Assembly (NCBI GenBank): GCA_022510885.1
Contig: JAFLSP010000025.1
Span: forward strand, 1-16,275
DNA: 16,275 nt
Origin: Treponema sp.
Lineage (GTDB): Bacteria; Spirochaetota; Spirochaetia; Treponematales; Treponemataceae
Direction of reading: 5' to 3'
The translations under genes were made by a program, and so were the position numbers. Below, piece by piece: positions 8,203-14,043 of this stretch. Within the stretch, counting starts at the first letter, position 1. Each line of letters starts with the position of its first letter. The notes beneath the pieces were generated by a model. The model ran no database searches. It was given only the letters and a program-made list of their open reading frames with translations, and was not told where the DNA came from.

Positions 8203-10014
8203 TCAGCGCAGATACTTCCGATACTCGCCGATGCCTTTTTGCAACGTCTGATAAATGATTTTTGAGCGTTGGAACGAAGCAACGACCGAATCAGCGGACA
8301 GTCCCGCCGCCGCGAACATATCGTTCAACTGCCGCTCCGTCGGAAACACGAGCGCGGCAACGTCCTTGCAGTCGGAACGCAGGATGTCCGCGTCAATGCG
8401 CTCCAGTTCATGCAGATACGCGCCGGAATTGCGCCGGTCGCCGAGTGCCTTGTCGGCGAGGGCGATGCCTTTTTTCGCCAGTCGATACAGCGCGTCAAAT
8501 CCGCTGGCAAGCTCATCATATACCTGGGCAAAAGCAGCCGCATCTTTCGGCACAGGACGCGCACTTGCCGCAAAAAACTGCGCGCGCGCGGCAGACTGTT
8601 CCGGCAGCTGCAACAGCGCCCGCGCATCAGCAACGGAAACGTGCGGAATGGCGAGCGAACGGGCAGAAAGCGAGTACGTCCGCACCTGCGGATATTCGGT
8701 TGCCCTGCGCTCAAACCACCACCCGAACAACTGCATCCGGTCGTCGGTCAAAAGCGGATTGCCGTCGTAATCACGCGCCGTCCGCATATTCGCCCCGAAC
8801 AGCGACGCAATGCCGCGCGTCTCCACGGGCTTGATGCGCGTCGCGACCGTGCAGATACGCTCCTCCGCTGTCGAACCGCGAATGTGTGTCTGCAAACCGG
8901 GATAGCCCAAGTCCAGACCCGCAACGTAAATGTCCTGCGCCCCGCACAGCCGCGCAAAATCCCATGCCGTCGTCGAGACCGACCCGCCCGCCGCGAGCGC
9001 GCCCTTGCCGCCAATCCGCCGCTCCATATACTGCCCGAGCGGAAAAAGCGAAGCACACAGCACGATTTCCTTGCACGGGAAGCGGAACACCGGCGGATAC
9101 GCGGCAGACTCCGTGATGAGTACGGACGAGGGGGAGGCAAGTCCCGCAATGTGGCGGGCAGCGTGATACTGCGGGTCAACGAGCACGATGAAATCCGGCT
9201 CAACGCCCGCGCGCAGGCAGGCGCGCAGCGCCGTGTCCGTGCATATCACGAGCAGGCGTTCTTTGAGCGCGGCAAGATGCGGAAGCACGTCGGCGAGCGT
9301 CGGTCCCGCCGCAAGCACGAGCGCGCCCAGCCCGCGCGGACACGTCTGCTCGTAACGCGCAACGCCGTCCAACTCACCCAGATAGCGCAGATTGCGGCAG
9401 CTGTTCCGCATCCACAGCGCGGAGAACCGCTCCAGCGTGTTCGTATTTACCTGCGACTTCTGCTTGGCGCGGTCAATGGCGGCAACCAGGGAAGCGTAAT
9501 AATCGGCAGCGTGTAACAGATGATTGTTGTTTGCGACAATTGCCGTATGCGCAAAGCCGCCCGCGCGTTCAATGAGCGAGACCACCTCGTCCGTATCTGC
9601 CTGCAAAGCAAGCACCACGTTCCGCGCGGCAAATACGGGCGACCAGTCCACATACCGCAGGGCATAAAAAAAATACGCCGCGTTCGGCTCAATGATAATA
9701 AGCGCATCGCGCGGAAACCGCTTTGCATAAGCGAGCGGCGCATAGCCCAAGCCGCAGGAAAAAAACGCACACGCATACACGCAGTCCTTTTTCGCGCCCG
9801 CCACGGTCTGCTCCGCTTCGCGCGCCGGGTCATACTGCGAATGCCACCACTTGCCCTGCTCCCGCGCAGAGGGAAGTCCGTTTTTCGCCGCGACGATTTC
9901 CAAACCGGGAATATCCGCCGGTTCGGGCGACTGCGCCGTCATGCCGTGCACTTGCGCGAGCGCGGGAAACCGCTCGCAGAACAGCGCGATGTTCTTATTC
10001 CAGATAGAGTTCAA
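8203..10014 (-). CDS. MptE-like / DUF115 protein (Maf-type flagellin glycosylation family)
   Basis: A 603-residue protein. Residues about 205-375 hold the DUF115 core: ALVLAAGPTLADVLPHL (231-247), VICTDTALRACLRAGVEPD (256-274), GGSVSTTAWDFARLCGA (343-359) and DIYVAGLDLGYPG (361-373). Members include Maf (motility accessory factor) proteins that add nonulosonic-acid sugars to flagellins, and the archaeal enzyme MptE; the flagellar role is a family-level inference. The N-terminus (NKNIALFCERFPALA) matches the usual start of Maf-type proteins. The only credible start is TTG at 10014, since an in-frame stop lies two codons upstream; a GGAG sits 10 nt before it. The gene overlaps the end of the PBP gene by 20 bp, suggesting coupled translation. 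Confidence 0.8.
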   Translation of the reverse strand: MNSIWNKNIALFCERFPALAQVHGMTAQSPEPADIPGLEIVAAKNGLPSAREQGKWWHSQYDPAREAEQTVAGAKKDCVYACAFFSCGLGYAPLAYAKRFPRDALIIIEPNAAYFFYALRYVDWSPVFAARNVVLALQADTDEVVSLIERAGGFAHTAIVANNNHLLHAADYYASLVAAIDRAKQKSQVNTNTLERFSALWMRNSCRNLRYLGELDGVARYEQTCPRGLGALVLAAGPTLADVLPHLAALKERLLVICTDTALRACLRAGVEPDFIVLVDPQYHAARHIAGLASPSSVLITESAAYPPVFRFPCKEIVLCASLFPLGQYMERRIGGKGALAAGGSVSTTAWDFARLCGAQDIYVAGLDLGYPGLQTHIRGSTAEERICTVATRIKPVETRGIASLFGANMRTARDYDGNPLLTDDRMQLFGWWFERRATEYPQVRTYSLSARSLAIPHVSVADARALLQLPEQSAARAQFFAASARPVPKDAAAFAQVYDELASGFDALYRLAKKGIALADKALGDRRNSGAYLHELERIDADILRSDCKDVAALVFPTERQLNDMFAAAGLSADSVVASFQRSKIIYQTLQKGIGEYRKYLR

Positions 10015-11878
10015 TGGTCATCTGCTCCGTGACGGGCGTTCCGGCGGGCGGGTTCTGCGTCTTGACCCAGCCGTCGCCGTTGATTTTTACGCGCAAGTCA
10101 GTGCGATGCAACAGCGGCAGCAGTTCGCGCTTGGGCAAGCCCGTAAAGTCGGGAAGGACATCGGTGATTTCGAGCATCTCCGCCCCCGTAATCGTAATGC
10201 TCCCCGAATGCCGCACGCTCGCCGCGCGCCCGCGGTTCATGCCCAGATGGTCGATTATCTCGTTCGCGGCTTCCTTGATGACCGGCGCGACGATTCGCCC
10301 CGCGTAGTTCTCGCCCTTCGCTTTCTCTATGACGATATAGAGAATGATTTCGGGATTCTCCACCGGGAACACGGCGATGCAGTTTGAAAGGAAGTCCGTC
10401 TTGCTGTAGCCGCCGTGCACCAGGTCTGCCATCTGCGCCGTGCCCGTCTTCACGCCGATAGAAATATCGCCCAAGCCCGCGCGCGTTCCCGTTCCGCTCT
10501 GCGCGACCGTCTCCATGCAGCTGAGCAAGTACGCCGCCGTCCTGGGGGAAAGCACCGCATCGCGCATGACCGGCTTGTGACTGTACGTCTCGCTGCCGTC
10601 GTGCGTGGTGATTTTTGCAATGAACGTAAGCTGCACGGGAACGCCGCCGTTGGCAATGGCGGTCGCCGCCTGCACCATTTGCAGCGCGCTCACCGTAATC
10701 TCCTGTCCGATGGCAATCGTCGGCTTTGACCGCGCCGACCACAGGCGGTCGCTCGTATTGCGCACCGACCCCGTCGTCTCCGCCGGCAGTTCCACGCCCG
10801 TGCGCGAACCGAACCCCAACGAGCGCACGCGCGCAAGGAACGGCTCGGAGTCAATTTTCTCGCTCATCTGCGCAAGCGCGTCGTTGCACGAATACTGCAA
10901 GGCCTCGCGCGCGCTGAGCCAGCCGTGATGGTCGAGGCAGGTGATGACAATACGCTCGCCGCTCGTCGTGCGCTTCTCGTACCTGCCGTCGCAGTAGAAC
11001 ATATCCCGCTCGCTGATTGCCCCCGAATCCAGGAATTCCGCCACCGAGAACACCTTGAACACCGACCCCGGCTCGTAGCTTTCCGTGGCGGGGCGGTCCA
11101 TGCGCTCCTCGCTCGACGAATGCGTGTAGTCGTTCAGATTGACGGCGGGCAGGCTGATGTAGGACAGGATTTCGCCCGTCTTCGCCTCCGCCGCAACCAG
11201 CATAAGGCTCTCCGCCTGCGTGCTCGCCATCGCCTCGCGCGCCACCTTCTCCAGCTTGAACTGCAAATTCGCGTCAATCGTCAGGTAGACGTTCTTCCCC
11301 TGCAAGTCCGCCGGCAGGAAATCGGCGGCGACCTTGGGCGAGAGCGTGTCCTGCATGGCATACTCAATGCCCGCAAGCCCCGTGCCCGAGTCGCCCATGT
11401 AGCCGATGAGCTGCGAGGCAAGCGCGCCCTCCGGGTAGACGCGCCCGGGAATACGGTCAAAGCGCACGGCGGCAATAAACCCGCCGTTGCGGCACGCCTC
11501 ATACAGCGCGTCGCAGGTGTTCTGGTCGATTTTTTTCCTGACGTAGACAAAGTGCGCGTTCGAGGCGTTCGCCACCGTCGCCGCGACCGACTGCTCGCTC
11601 TCGCCCAAAATCGGCGCGACTGCCCGCGCAAACGCGGGAATATCATGCATCGCGCTCGGCGTGACACCAAAATGATAGAAACTTGTCGAGACGGCGAGCG
11701 CCTTTCCGTTGCGGTCAACGATTGAGCCACGCTGTACGACCGGGGATGCCGCCATGCGCGGTGCCTCCTGCACAAAGGCAAGCCTTGCATACTTGACGAG
11801 AATGACGACGCTGAAAATCGCGACGCAGATGCCTAAAAAAATAAGTCGCTTTACCCGCAAAAAATGATTCATCTGCAT
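9995..11878 (-). CDS. Class B penicillin-binding protein (FtsI/PBP2-like) with one PASTA domain
   Basis: A 627-residue transpeptidase that cross-links peptidoglycan. It has a single N-terminal membrane anchor (about residues 10-30), a dimerisation/pedestal region starting near RGSIVDRNG (50-58), then the transpeptidase domain with SVFK (272-275, nucleophile Ser272), SCN (330-332) and KTG (477-479). Residues about 573-627 (DVLPDFTGLPKRELLPLL ... NPPAGTPV) form one PASTA domain, which in related proteins contacts wall fragments or the catalytic domain. The layout is that of a division-type PBP. ATG 11878 has GGGG 8 nt upstream and overlaps lepB by 10 bp; ATG 11872 would give a classic 4 bp ATGA overlap. 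Which is used cannot be decided by eye. Confidence 0.92.
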   Translation of the reverse strand: MQMNHFLRVKRLIFLGICVAIFSVVILVKYARLAFVQEAPRMAASPVVQRGSIVDRNGKALAVSTSFYHFGVTPSAMHDIPAFARAVAPILGESEQSVAATVANASNAHFVYVRKKIDQNTCDALYEACRNGGFIAAVRFDRIPGRVYPEGALASQLIGYMGDSGTGLAGIEYAMQDTLSPKVAADFLPADLQGKNVYLTIDANLQFKLEKVAREAMASTQAESLMLVAAEAKTGEILSYISLPAVNLNDYTHSSSEERMDRPATESYEPGSVFKVFSVAEFLDSGAISERDMFYCDGRYEKRTTSGERIVITCLDHHGWLSAREALQYSCNDALAQMSEKIDSEPFLARVRSLGFGSRTGVELPAETTGSVRNTSDRLWSARSKPTIAIGQEITVSALQMVQAATAIANGGVPVQLTFIAKITTHDGSETYSHKPVMRDAVLSPRTAAYLLSCMETVAQSGTGTRAGLGDISIGVKTGTAQMADLVHGGYSKTDFLSNCIAVFPVENPEIILYIVIEKAKGENYAGRIVAPVIKEAANEIIDHLGMNRGRAASVRHSGSITITGAEMLEITDVLPDFTGLPKRELLPLLHRTDLRVKINGDGWVKTQNPPAGTPVTEQMTIELYLE

Positions 11879-12372
11879 AAGACTTTCCCCAACACGTTCC
11901 GTACCGGAACAAACCCGTAGGTGCGGGAGTCCACCGATTCCTCGTAATTGTCGCCGACCGCAAGGATGTAGCCGTCGGGCACTGCGTCAATATCCTTCAA
12001 CTGCTGATACTGCGCGTCCGTCAGCGGAATCCGCGTGCCTCCCACCGTCAGAGTATACACCGTATCGGACGAATATGCTAGATGCTCACCGCCCGTCGCG
12101 ACGCACCTTTTCACCACGATTTTGTTGTCATATAAATAGATGACGACATCGCCCGCCAGAGGCTCGCGCCACTGCACGAGCAGCCGCTCGCCGTAAGGCC
12201 GCGCAAGCCCGTAGGCAAGTTTGTTCACCACGAGCGTGTCCCCGTCCCGGAGCGCGGGCCACATCGACCTGCCGGAGACGTGCAGCACGTCCACCACGAA
12301 CAGCTTGAGCAGCAGCCCCGCCGCAAGCCCCAGGCAGATGACCAACACCGCGTTCTTCCCGTCCTCACTCAT
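11869..12372 (-). CDS. lepB: Signal peptidase I
   Basis: A 167-residue type I signal peptidase that removes signal peptides from exported proteins on the outer face of the inner membrane. It has one N-terminal transmembrane segment (about residues 8-29), SGRSMWP with catalytic Ser36, the KIVVKRCVA block with general base Lys88, and the C-terminal box GDNYEESVDSRTYG (140-153). The size matches the short, single-anchor form. The start at 12372 (MSEDGKN) is preferred over 12510: the longer frame would add an implausible 46-residue leader running through the promoter region. A TATACT -10 lies 7 bp upstream with almost no Shine-Dalgarno (GGA). It heads the six-gene envelope operon. Confidence 0.92.
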   Translation of the reverse strand: MSEDGKNAVLVICLGLAAGLLLKLFVVDVLHVSGRSMWPALRDGDTLVVNKLAYGLARPYGERLLVQWREPLAGDVVIYLYDNKIVVKRCVATGGEHLAYSSDTVYTLTVGGTRIPLTDAQYQQLKDIDAVPDGYILAVGDNYEESVDSRTYGFVPVRNVLGKVLCR

Positions 12373-12379
12373 CACGTCC

Positions 12380-12415
12380 AGTATACCGTTTTTCGCGATT
12401 TTTTTCACACTTTTT
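12380..12415 (-). promoter_or_regulatory. lepB operon promoter with phased A-tracts
   Basis: Minus-strand -10 TATACT at 12380-12385. No good -35 is found, but three A-tracts (A5 at 12389-12393, A7 at 12399-12405, A5 at 12411-12415) are centred exactly 11 bp apart. Such phasing bends DNA and can act like an UP element. Confidence 0.55.
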
Positions 12416-12452
12416 CTCAAGTTTCTCCCCGCCGCACCGATAGTAAAAGTGT

Positions 12453-12503
12453 ACCCGGAAGCGTCAGTGCGAAACGACATCCAGACGCACTGACAGTGCC
12501 GGT
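12453..12503 (+). ncRNA. Unassigned structured RNA element (strong hairpin)
   Basis: A perfect 9 bp stem pairs GTCAGTGCG (12463-12471) with CGCACTGAC (12486-12494) around a 14-nt loop (AAACGACATCCAGA). Beyond a 4x4 internal loop, ACC(C)GG (12453-12458) pairs with CCGGT (12499-12503), leaving one bulged C. No coding frame explains it. It lies 11 bp before an intrinsic terminator on the same strand, so it could be the body of a small RNA of roughly 100 nt or the sensing part of a leader for the HD-GYP gene. It does not match the riboswitches, tRNA, SRP RNA or integron attC sites I can recall. Confidence 0.45.
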
Positions 12504-12514
12504 TCTCCATACTT

Positions 12515-12554
12515 AAAACTTGGAAGACGTGTAAGGTCTTTCAAGTTTTTTTTT
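12515..12554 (+). terminator. Intrinsic (Rho-independent) terminator, plus strand
   Basis: AAAACTTGGAAGAC (12515-12528) pairs with GTCTTTCAAGTTTT (12536-12549): 14 bp with one G-U pair, a 7-nt loop (GTGTAAG) and a run of nine T (12546-12554). The minus strand offers only four T, so the element acts on plus-strand transcripts. No plus-strand gene lies directly upstream, which makes its purpose notable. Confidence 0.82.
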
Positions 12555-12615
12555 GCCCGCCCGATTTTTCGCTACAGACCGCGCGCGCGACTGCCGATAT
12601 TCTACGCGGACGACT

Positions 12616-14043
12616 ATGAATTCCTATTCAATCAGCGAACTCGAAGACGGCACGACTTTCTCCAACCACCTCTTTCTGGACGAAAAATTCCAGCTGCTCG
12701 ACACGGAGGTTCCTTTCACCGCCTCCATGAAACAGGCACTCACCGAATGGCAGTTCCGCGTGGTGTTCTCCGACGGCAACGCGCACATCCCGGACAATCC
12801 CGCCGAGCCAGCCGCGCCGACCGAAACCAAAAAAGACATACCCCAGAACGTGAATTATGAATCGGTCGATTTGGACAACCTGCTCGGACTGCCGCAGAAC
12901 GCACAGAGCCAGCCGCCCGAGCCGCCCACCGAGGTACCCGACCTGCCCACGCCGGCAAGCGAGAAACCCGCTCCCGTAAAGCTCGAAAAAAACATCAGCA
13001 TCGACGACCTGGACGATTTGTTCGGCGAGCTAGACGCACCGCTCGGACTTGACGACACGGAAGAGGAAGCGGCACTTCCCGAAGAGCCGCCAGCAGCCGA
13101 CGACACAGGCACGGACGACGAACCGCCCGCATTTGACGCGGCGGCAGACGCGGAGCGCATCGCGCAGGCACGCGCCTTCTACAACGACTTTTTGGATTAC
13201 ATCGACACCCTGTTCAAGAACTACACGGCGGAACAAAAACTCGACGCGCCGTCAGTCACGGAAAAAGTCAACGAACTGCGCGCATTCGTCAAGGAGAACC
13301 GCCCGTACATCCTGCGCATCATGCCCACGGACGAGGCGGCGAACAAGCACTTCCTGGTCAACCACAGCATGCGCTCAACCGTGCTCGCGCTCATCATCGG
13401 CATGACGCTCAGGATGACTGACGACAAACTGACCGAACTGGGAGTCGCCTGTATGCTGCACGAAATCGGGCAAATCCGCCTGCCGCCGCAGGTCTACATG
13501 ACCGACCAGCCGCTTTCCGACGAAGAGCGCGGCAAGATGGCGGCACACCCTATTTTGAGTTACTACATCCTCAAGGAAAACAACTTCCCCCATTCCGTCC
13601 AGATTGCCGTGCTCGAACACCACGAACACGAGGACGGCACGGGCTACCCGCGCAAACTCAGCGGCAACAACATCACCTCGTTCGCAAAAATCATCGCCGT
13701 TGCCTGCTCGTTCGAGGCGATAACCGCCCCGCGCCAGTTCCGGCAGGCACGCACCACCCACGAGGCCATGCTCGACATGCTCAAAGACAACGAGCAGCAG
13801 TATGACGACATCGTGCTCAAAGCGCTGCTGCACAGCCTGTCGCTCTACCCCATCGGCGCGTTCGTCCAGCTCGCCAGCGGCAAGACCGCGCAGGTCGTCA
13901 ACAGCAACCCGGGCAACCCCGCGCATCCCGTCATCAGGCTGACCGACGGGACGCACGAGTGCGAGGCGGACGACGGCGACTACAAAATCGTCCGCGTGCT
14001 GGACGCGCAGGAAGCCTCCGCGCTCAAAACCGAAGCAGAATAA
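12616..14043 (+). CDS. HD-GYP-type protein with altered catalytic residues
   Basis: A 475-residue cytoplasmic protein. Residues 1-55 (SISELEDGTTF ... FRVVFSDG) are a small N-terminal domain of the kind that often precedes HD-GYP modules. Residues about 56-180 are an acidic, proline-rich, probably disordered linker. Residues about 240-420 are the HD-GYP fold, normally a c-di-GMP phosphodiesterase: His250, HEIGQ (282-286), His311, HHEHEDGTGYP (335-345). The signature HDxGK reads HEIGQ, and the usual D-x2-(Y/F)-D region reads CSFE (364-367), so metal-ligand acids are changed. It may be weakly active or a c-di-GMP sensor; that is inference. ATG 12616 is preferred over a TTG at 12553 inside the terminator T-tract. 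A poor -10 (TATTCT, 12598-12603) and no Shine-Dalgarno precede it. It ends 3 bp from the convergent gene. Confidence 0.82.
   Translation: MNSYSISELEDGTTFSNHLFLDEKFQLLDTEVPFTASMKQALTEWQFRVVFSDGNAHIPDNPAEPAAPTETKKDIPQNVNYESVDLDNLLGLPQNAQSQPPEPPTEVPDLPTPASEKPAPVKLEKNISIDDLDDLFGELDAPLGLDDTEEEAALPEEPPAADDTGTDDEPPAFDAAADAERIAQARAFYNDFLDYIDTLFKNYTAEQKLDAPSVTEKVNELRAFVKENRPYILRIMPTDEAANKHFLVNHSMRSTVLALIIGMTLRMTDDKLTELGVACMLHEIGQIRLPPQVYMTDQPLSDEERGKMAAHPILSYYILKENNFPHSVQIAVLEHHEHEDGTGYPRKLSGNNITSFAKIIAVACSFEAITAPRQFRQARTTHEAMLDMLKDNEQQYDDIVLKALLHSLSLYPIGAFVQLASGKTAQVVNSNPGNPAHPVIRLTDGTHECEADDGDYKIVRVLDAQEASALKTEAE

Follow-up and report, generated by a model that had tools for sequence, protein, structure and literature searches.

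The locus examined here raises the question of what a strong hairpin and a near-perfect intrinsic terminator are doing on the plus strand of a Treponema sp. genome, at a place where no annotated plus-strand gene is available for the terminator to end, since lepB (11869-12372) is encoded by the minus strand and is transcribed away from the feature. This point had already been made in the first-pass annotation of the window (i.e. the whole stretch of 16,275 nucleotides that was analysed), and it is upheld. The same annotation had placed a hairpin at 12453-12503 and a terminator at 12515-12554, both of which were confirmed by their pairing and by comparison of their folding with that of shuffled sequences. 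For these elements it had offered two models, namely a stand-alone RNA of about 104 nt that starts near 12451, and a leader of the downstream HD-GYP gene that switches between a terminator and an antiterminator.

The segment 12450-12556 folds with -39.4 kcal/mol (z = -4.66), and none of 200 shuffled sequences was equally stable. The fold of the broader segment 12400-12620 was weaker, with a z of -1.68 and 9 of 200 shuffles as stable. It should be noted that a simple terminator scan of 11000-14000 is not significant on its own, because it returned 4 sites where 3.9 were expected; the site at 12515 has 14 pairs and the remaining three sites have 5-6. A scan of the window against Rfam 15 gave no match at the gathering score, and below this score just two matches were found around the feature. 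At looser thresholds, 20 relative loci yielded a tRNA and one weak TD-1 match, both of which lie elsewhere. Judging from its sequence, the feature is probably a stand-alone gene for an RNA of about 105 nt (Table 1).

Table 1. Positions of the predicted small RNA, its parts and its neighbours in the window, and of its proposed partner in the same genome.
Feature	Position	Strand	Remarks
-35 element TCAAGTTT	12417-12424	+	σ28 (FliA) type; contains the CAAGTTT formerly proposed as antiterminator
-10 element ACCGATAG	12436-12443	+	σ28 type
Predicted small RNA	12450-12554	+	5' end predicted by the promoter and 3' end by the U-run
Conserved hairpin H1	12463-12494	+	9-bp stem; matched by models R1 and R2
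H1 loop GACAUCCAGA	12476-12485	+	complementary to the loop of the flaB-flaG hairpin
Intrinsic terminator	12515-12554	+	14-bp stem 12515-12528 / 12536-12549, U-run to 12554
Terminator loop GTGTAAG	12529-12535	+	
HD-GYP-type gene (Pfam HD_5)	12616-14043	+	syntenic downstream neighbour, not the inferred target
MptE-like / Maf-type gene (flagellin glycosyltransferase-like)	8203-10014	-	2.4 kb from the RNA here
HA loop, own genome	G000 contig C271:19452-19460		CTGGATGTC; complement of the H1 loop

On the 5' side of the likely transcript, the window reads TCAAGTTT-N11-ACCGATAG (12417-12443), and no second match to the narrow form of this promoter was found within the window. The RACE-mapped promoter PflaB2 of T. 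denticola has a -10 of CCGATAA and a -35 of TTAA (excerpts of PMC9481697). These assignments bear on two further elements of the first-pass annotation. CAAGTTT (12418-12424) is indeed complementary to AAACTTG (12516-12522), but as the -35 box it lies outside and upstream of the likely RNA, and the antiterminator role proposed for it is therefore not retained. Likewise, GATAGT, which had been taken for a weak -10, is present at 12439-12444 and belongs to the σ28-type promoter. The sole σ70-type promoter-like site in 11000-14000 is found on the minus strand (window 12408-12372). A distance of 8 bases separates the end of its -10 from the start codon of lepB (12372), and the lepB mRNA could therefore be nearly leaderless.

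Relatives of the RNA were sought at increasing distances. In a DNA search of 59 genomes, including the own genome, the region was found in the latter and in three further members of the genus. When a sequence pattern was used, 37 of 200 genus genomes were matched, compared with 3 for a mirrored control, a few of the 37 being due to chance; four matches (L012, L017, L021 and L033) were chance-like and were excluded from subsequent counts. Because MAFFT misaligns the H1 stems, the loop length being variable, a covariance model of H1 (R1) was built from seven members of equal length, the window among them. In the 200 genomes of the genus, R1 found matches in 68 at E ≤ 0.01. When the limit was relaxed to E ≤ 1, where matches by chance are to be expected, this rose to 126 genomes, 120 of them with one match and six with two or three. 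A second model (R2), built from 40 R1 matches, was found at E ≤ 0.05 in 116 of 390 genomes of the order; 92 of these belong to the genus, 18 to six further genera of the same family, and 6 lie outside the family. All 18 matches in the other genera have the hairpin with a CCGATA-type promoter upstream. Of the six matches outside the family, those in G308 and G324 show a hairpin with its promoter, the U-run coming directly after H1, whereas those in G045, G230, G465 and G318 do not have promoter and hairpin and were rejected; the RNA of G045 described below sits elsewhere than this rejected match. An exact-pattern scan of genomes of named species returned 26 loci, all from Treponema (T. parvum ATCC 700773 and T. 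porcinum ATCC BAA-908 included), uncultured Spirochaetaceae or Spirochaetes. Many members of the genus thus appear, by sequence, to carry a relative of the RNA, as do six further genera of the family and three genomes from a different family. Two variant forms were seen. In L006, L027, L028 and L030 (genomes G027, G150, G032 and G031), H1 and promoter are unchanged and are followed by a longer 3' part (CTCCATGAGGAAAGG... or similar) with another terminator. In the other family (L300, L301 and G045:C1:1366984, minus strand), the RNA looks shorter, as the U-run follows H1, which itself seems to be the terminator.

When the relatives were aligned, GACATCCAGACGC proved constant and the terminator similar, with CCGATA located upstream. 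In the window, 12461-12471 pairs with 12486-12497, leaving one bulge, and H1 is closed further by CCGG (12455-12458 / 12499-12502); across the relatives, the conserved loop is GACATCCAGA. Among 38 distinct sequences in a model-fitted alignment, 8 of the 9 pairs of H1 have changes on both sides, 91.7% of the cells are paired (73.1% in shuffles), and the covariation score is 0.560 as compared with 0.203 in shuffles (0 of 500 reaching it) and 0.191 for the best slid register. These pair counts lean towards the model to which the alignment was fitted; complementary stems are already visible in the raw sequences. The first-pass annotation had stated that it would give up its proposal if compensatory changes or conservation of the hairpin were lacking, and the opposite is the case: H1 covaries and is kept in relatives. 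Other parts of the RNA are conserved as well. The terminator loop has TGTGAG or TGTAAG (GUGURAGG-type) in 60 of 101 relatives, and the linker motif [CT]TCCAT[GA] occurs in 22 of 101; these conserved parts outside H1 have no known partner and are not accounted for by the pairing proposed below. From two MAFFT alignments, RNAalifold drew a pairing of the H1 loop with the loop of the terminator; this was set aside, since the paired columns are nearly invariant and so provide no evidence, and since the terminator loop motif is absent from several genera.

The promoter is conserved along with the hairpin. TAAA-N-CGATA is located 5' of the loop, at an almost fixed spacing, in 79 of 101 loci with a strict motif and in 97 of 101 with a relaxed one, as compared with 5 and 99 of 1911 control windows, respectively; the TCAA form of the window is scored under the relaxed motif alone. 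One of the four loci that miss the promoter has only 3 nt of upstream sequence, and another, in G205, shows none by eye. A σ28 promoter directly upstream, which marks the σ28-dependent flagellar small RNAs, therefore seems by its motif to be a feature of the present RNA too.

We then considered whether the RNA could be a cis leader of the HD-GYP gene, i.e. an attenuator or riboswitch-like terminator/antiterminator that governs c-di-GMP turnover. In 80 of 101 loci the HD-GYP gene follows the RNA on the same strand, often at a short distance, and read-through from the promoter of the RNA could therefore feed it. However, the HD-GYP gene is on the other side and on the opposite strand in 5 loci, and was not found in the available flank in 16, which indicates that the RNA can part from it. 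In addition, the strand that would have to serve as antiterminator is promoter DNA, no riboswitch was matched in Rfam, and the constant loop matches a distant mRNA, described below, rather than HD-GYP. With an antiterminator outside the transcript and a position in cis that is not constant, we do not class the RNA with the HD-GYP attenuators or riboswitches, and we regard such a role as very improbable. The switching leader proposed in the first-pass annotation is thereby abandoned, its antiterminator strand being the -35 box. Its other model, the stand-alone RNA, is borne out by the conserved promoter, the covarying hairpin, the terminator, and the loci where HD-GYP is inverted or not found. 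In 53 of the 101 loci the Maf-type gene precedes the RNA on the same strand, and in 2 it lies downstream on the opposite strand; in the flanks of the remaining 46, which are often short, it was not found.

The exact loop complement, TCTGGATGTC, was sought in ten genomes and gave 54 matches, nine of which are the RNA genes themselves, against 30 for a mirrored control. When 30 of these loci were read, five proved to be at one and the same place, between a flagellin gene and flaG, and G202 provides a sixth complement at this junction by coordinates. A FlaG profile detected flaG in each of 53 further genomes that were searched, which together with the five loci above gives 58 flaG leaders. In the 260 nt that precede flaG, the best-matching site of every leader is 0-2 mismatches away from the 10-nt complement and is part of a hairpin (HA) of the form AAGAGAY-NCYGGAYGTN-RTCTTTT or a close variant. 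In local folds this hairpin forms, but one or two base pairs arise within its loop, which is why in none of the 58 leaders as many as 8 of the 9 core bases are left unpaired; the flanking stems measure 1-16 bp, with a median of 10. The motif of HA loop and 3' arm was counted in 140 of 200 genus genomes, once in 136 of them, compared with 5 matches for a mirrored control, this being a count of the motif wherever it occurs in a genome. Two copies were seen in G147, G017, G189 and G209, one copy being CCGGATGTT in G147 and G209, which suggests a second operon or mixed assemblies.

In the own genome, HA begins 29 nt past the stop of flaB, at a distance of about 84 nt from the flaG start. It is followed by a GC-rich, terminator-like hairpin with a U-run, and then by the ribosome-binding site of flaG. 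Such a hairpin with a T-run, second after HA, was recognised by a simple pattern in 53 of the 58 leaders, and could serve as a partial terminator by which the ratio of flagellin to FlaG is set. This hairpin before the ribosome-binding site has a GUGCGCC-type top, for example in L185:1444-1480. The gene after flaG looks by eye like one that we take to be fliD. Two flagellin C-termini precede HA in 28 of 29 loci, and a σ28-type site just upstream of the flagellin gene next to HA was found in none of the 20 loci with a placeable start. This arrangement of two flagellins is reminiscent of the flaB1-flaB3 operon of T. denticola, which has a σ70-like promoter according to excerpts of PMC9481697.

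If the two loops are partners, they should change together. Both loops were available for 88 genomes, and in 84 of these they are exact 9-nt complements, whereas swapped partners gave a mean of 59.4 and a maximum of 68 exact matches (10000 shuffles, relatedness ignored). The exceptions are G128, G139, G277 and G296; G063 and G069, which are outside the 88, also match. Three loop positions change together between RNA and target. The first paired change is from G-C to A-U. For four genomes without a model match, it was predicted before looking that the RNA loop should read AACATCC where the target ends in T; this loop was indeed found in G018, G069 and G020, and not in G120. Among the 25 genomes with only a T-form target, the RNA has A in 13 and C in one (G139), and it was not identified in the other 11. 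The second paired change, from A-U to G-C, is confined to one clade (CCGG form; G063, G066, G074 and G095). The third lies between families. Of the 18 flaG loci from other families, 16 have the hairpin and differ from CTGGATGTC by no more than one mismatch; 15 of these read CTGGACGTC and one reads CTGGATGTC. One of the two remaining loci is truncated at 56 nt. From the CTGGACGTC target, GACGTCCAG was predicted as the RNA loop of the other families, and this loop was met in G045, which has the CTGGACGTC target. In the 1.94 of 3.24 Mb of this genome that were searched, GACGTCCAG occurs at one place in an 11-bp hairpin with a σ28-type promoter and a U-run; another of the G045 matches listed combines a stem of 4 bp with a poor promoter. 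The RNA loops of G308 and G324 are UACAUCCAG and AACAUCCAG, for which the predicted target loops are CTGGATGTA and CTGGATGTT, respectively.

The number of independent events was estimated on a tree of flagellin and FlaG. A first flagellin tree of 110 columns was poorly resolved; the second kept 64 of 79 rows, 15 being dropped. On the latter (64 genomes), the T state requires at least 4 changes, of which 3 fall on branches with good support. The RNA did not change in the opposite way in any independent pair, and the sign test (median p of 0.5) is not significant because there are too few such pairs. Energies of the whole-RNA duplex hardly favoured own partners (-44.16, versus -43.15 for swaps and -44.20 for the best swap). 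A second pairing site, between the 3' part of the RNA and the flaB-flaG leader, was considered and rejected, since the gap between own and swapped partners in 51 genomes (-27.99 versus -26.97, best swap -27.86) is too small for a claim. Altogether, the view that the flaB-flaG hairpin is the partner of the RNA is well supported by the comparison of sequences, and base pairing in trans with a flagellar mRNA, another mark of σ28-dependent flagellar small RNAs, is predicted here as well.

We therefore favour, with good though not full confidence, the reading that the locus encodes a trans-acting RNA of about 105 nt that is started by σ28 and whose H1 loop kisses HA at the flaB-flaG junction. σ28 RNA polymerase would start the RNA near 12450 and the intrinsic terminator would stop it near 12554. 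Promoters of the σ28 type are active after completion of the hook, when FlgM leaves the cell, and the RNA would therefore be expected from that moment on. Once made, it would bind the loop behind flagellin, GACAUCCAGA forming a loop-loop ('kissing') contact of 9-10 bp with the HA loop, and would thereby couple the activity of σ28, as a sign of the completed hook, to the flagellin-flaG(-fliD) operon. The contact lies before the terminator-like hairpin and the flaG start, and could in this way alter cleavage, stability of the flagellin mRNA or read-through into flaG. Accordingly, at the flaB-flaG junction we would expect an effect, of either sign, on processing, stability or read-through. Hfq (PF17209) was found in none of 21 genomes (the own genome, 12 of the genus and 8 of the order), whereas the same search was positive in 5 of 14 control genomes. 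We therefore do not count the RNA among the Hfq-dependent trans-acting small RNAs, and a preformed loop-loop contact is a mode of pairing that fits this finding.

Since GGA is kept in every form of the target that was read (CTGGATGTC, CTGGATGTT, CCGGATGTC and CTGGACGTC), HA might instead be a CsrA site that the small RNA masks or, in the extreme form of this idea, a site that CsrA alone explains and that the RNA matches incidentally. The loop sequence GGAUGU resembles what we take to be the CsrA consensus. In T. denticola a CsrA homolog is present, and sites for it lie near the start regions of flaB1 and flaB2, as described in parts of PMC9481697. However, the extreme form leaves unexplained the matched changes outside GGA in both loci, and we judge the CsrA explanation unlikely, though deserving of attention. 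Masking as such is compatible with the kissing contact, and may be either a serious alternative or a part of the same mechanism. A different relation to CsrA is known from small RNAs of the CsrB/RsmZ kind, which sponge this protein. Like these, the present RNA would act around CsrA and flagellin; unlike them, it carries UCC and GUGURAGG in its conserved loops and no GGA. The conserved loops being GACATCCAGA and GTGTRAGG, and GGA being present in the window RNA only outside hairpin loops, at the base of H1 (12457-12459) and in the terminator stem (12522-12524), we reject the idea that it is a CsrA-sponging RNA.

The contact between the two loops could also work in the reverse direction, the flagellin mRNA, which is expected to be abundant, sponging the small RNA away from other targets. 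The conservation of the terminator loop and linker motifs, in 60 and 22 of 101 relatives without a known partner, would be understandable in this case. However, no second recurrent partner came to light, as the flaB-flaG junction was the only non-RNA place to be repeated (in 5 genomes) among the 30 loci read from the 10-nt complement search, and this direction appears improbable to us. Returning to the kissing RNA that we prefer, its boldest version is an ancient pair, present throughout the order and co-evolving base for base, by which completion of the hook is passed on through an RNA, without Hfq, to a flagellin-FlaG-FliD operon that is not itself transcribed by σ28, perhaps in competition with CsrA for the same loop. 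This broader view is tentative, and we hold it to be rather less probable than its opposite.

Small RNAs under σ28-type promoters with a flagellar link are known from other bacteria. In E. coli, UhpU, MotR, FliX and FlgO are σ28-dependent and alter the level of flagellin and the number of flagella; as far as the excerpts of PMC10578931 go, they resemble in these traits what is proposed for the RNA described here, but they are described as derived from UTRs and have Hfq among the keywords, whereas the present RNA looks stand-alone and has a loop-loop match to the flaB-flaG leader. In Campylobacter, CjNC1 and CjNC4 are σ28-dependent (PMC4626219, in part) and CJnc170/FlmR is FliA-dependent (PMC11187230, in part), with flagellar targets or effects. 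CjNC1 and CjNC4 repress reporters without Hfq in E. coli, and their predicted targets are 5' UTRs of σ54 genes, unlike flaB-flaG here (excerpts of PMC4626219). A kissing hairpin or an order-wide co-evolution of loops is not mentioned in the descriptions of the Campylobacter RNAs that were compared (PMC4626219, PMC11187230). The related spirochete T. denticola shares the σ28 promoter form and the flagellin genes. Its flagellins are controlled by σ28, σ70 and CsrA, flaB1-flaB3 being in the operon with the σ70-like promoter, and the portions of PMC9481697 consulted describe no small RNA of the present kind in this control. The same holds true for Treponema and spirochetes in the literature searched (including PMC9481697, PMC7160235 and PMC8525777, in part), a search that left most subscription papers outside. 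Our comparisons thus point to a hitherto undescribed RNA control of flagellum building.

The present findings supply a seed for a family that is missing from Rfam 15, and they offer a clear case of a small RNA loop that co-evolves with the loop of a distant mRNA. If the proposed mechanism is true, it would represent RNA control of flagella in bacteria where Hfq was not found. The periplasmic flagella of spirochetes are built from several flagellins under different sigma factors, and a σ28-dependent RNA would offer a specific and testable answer to the question of how these are coordinated.
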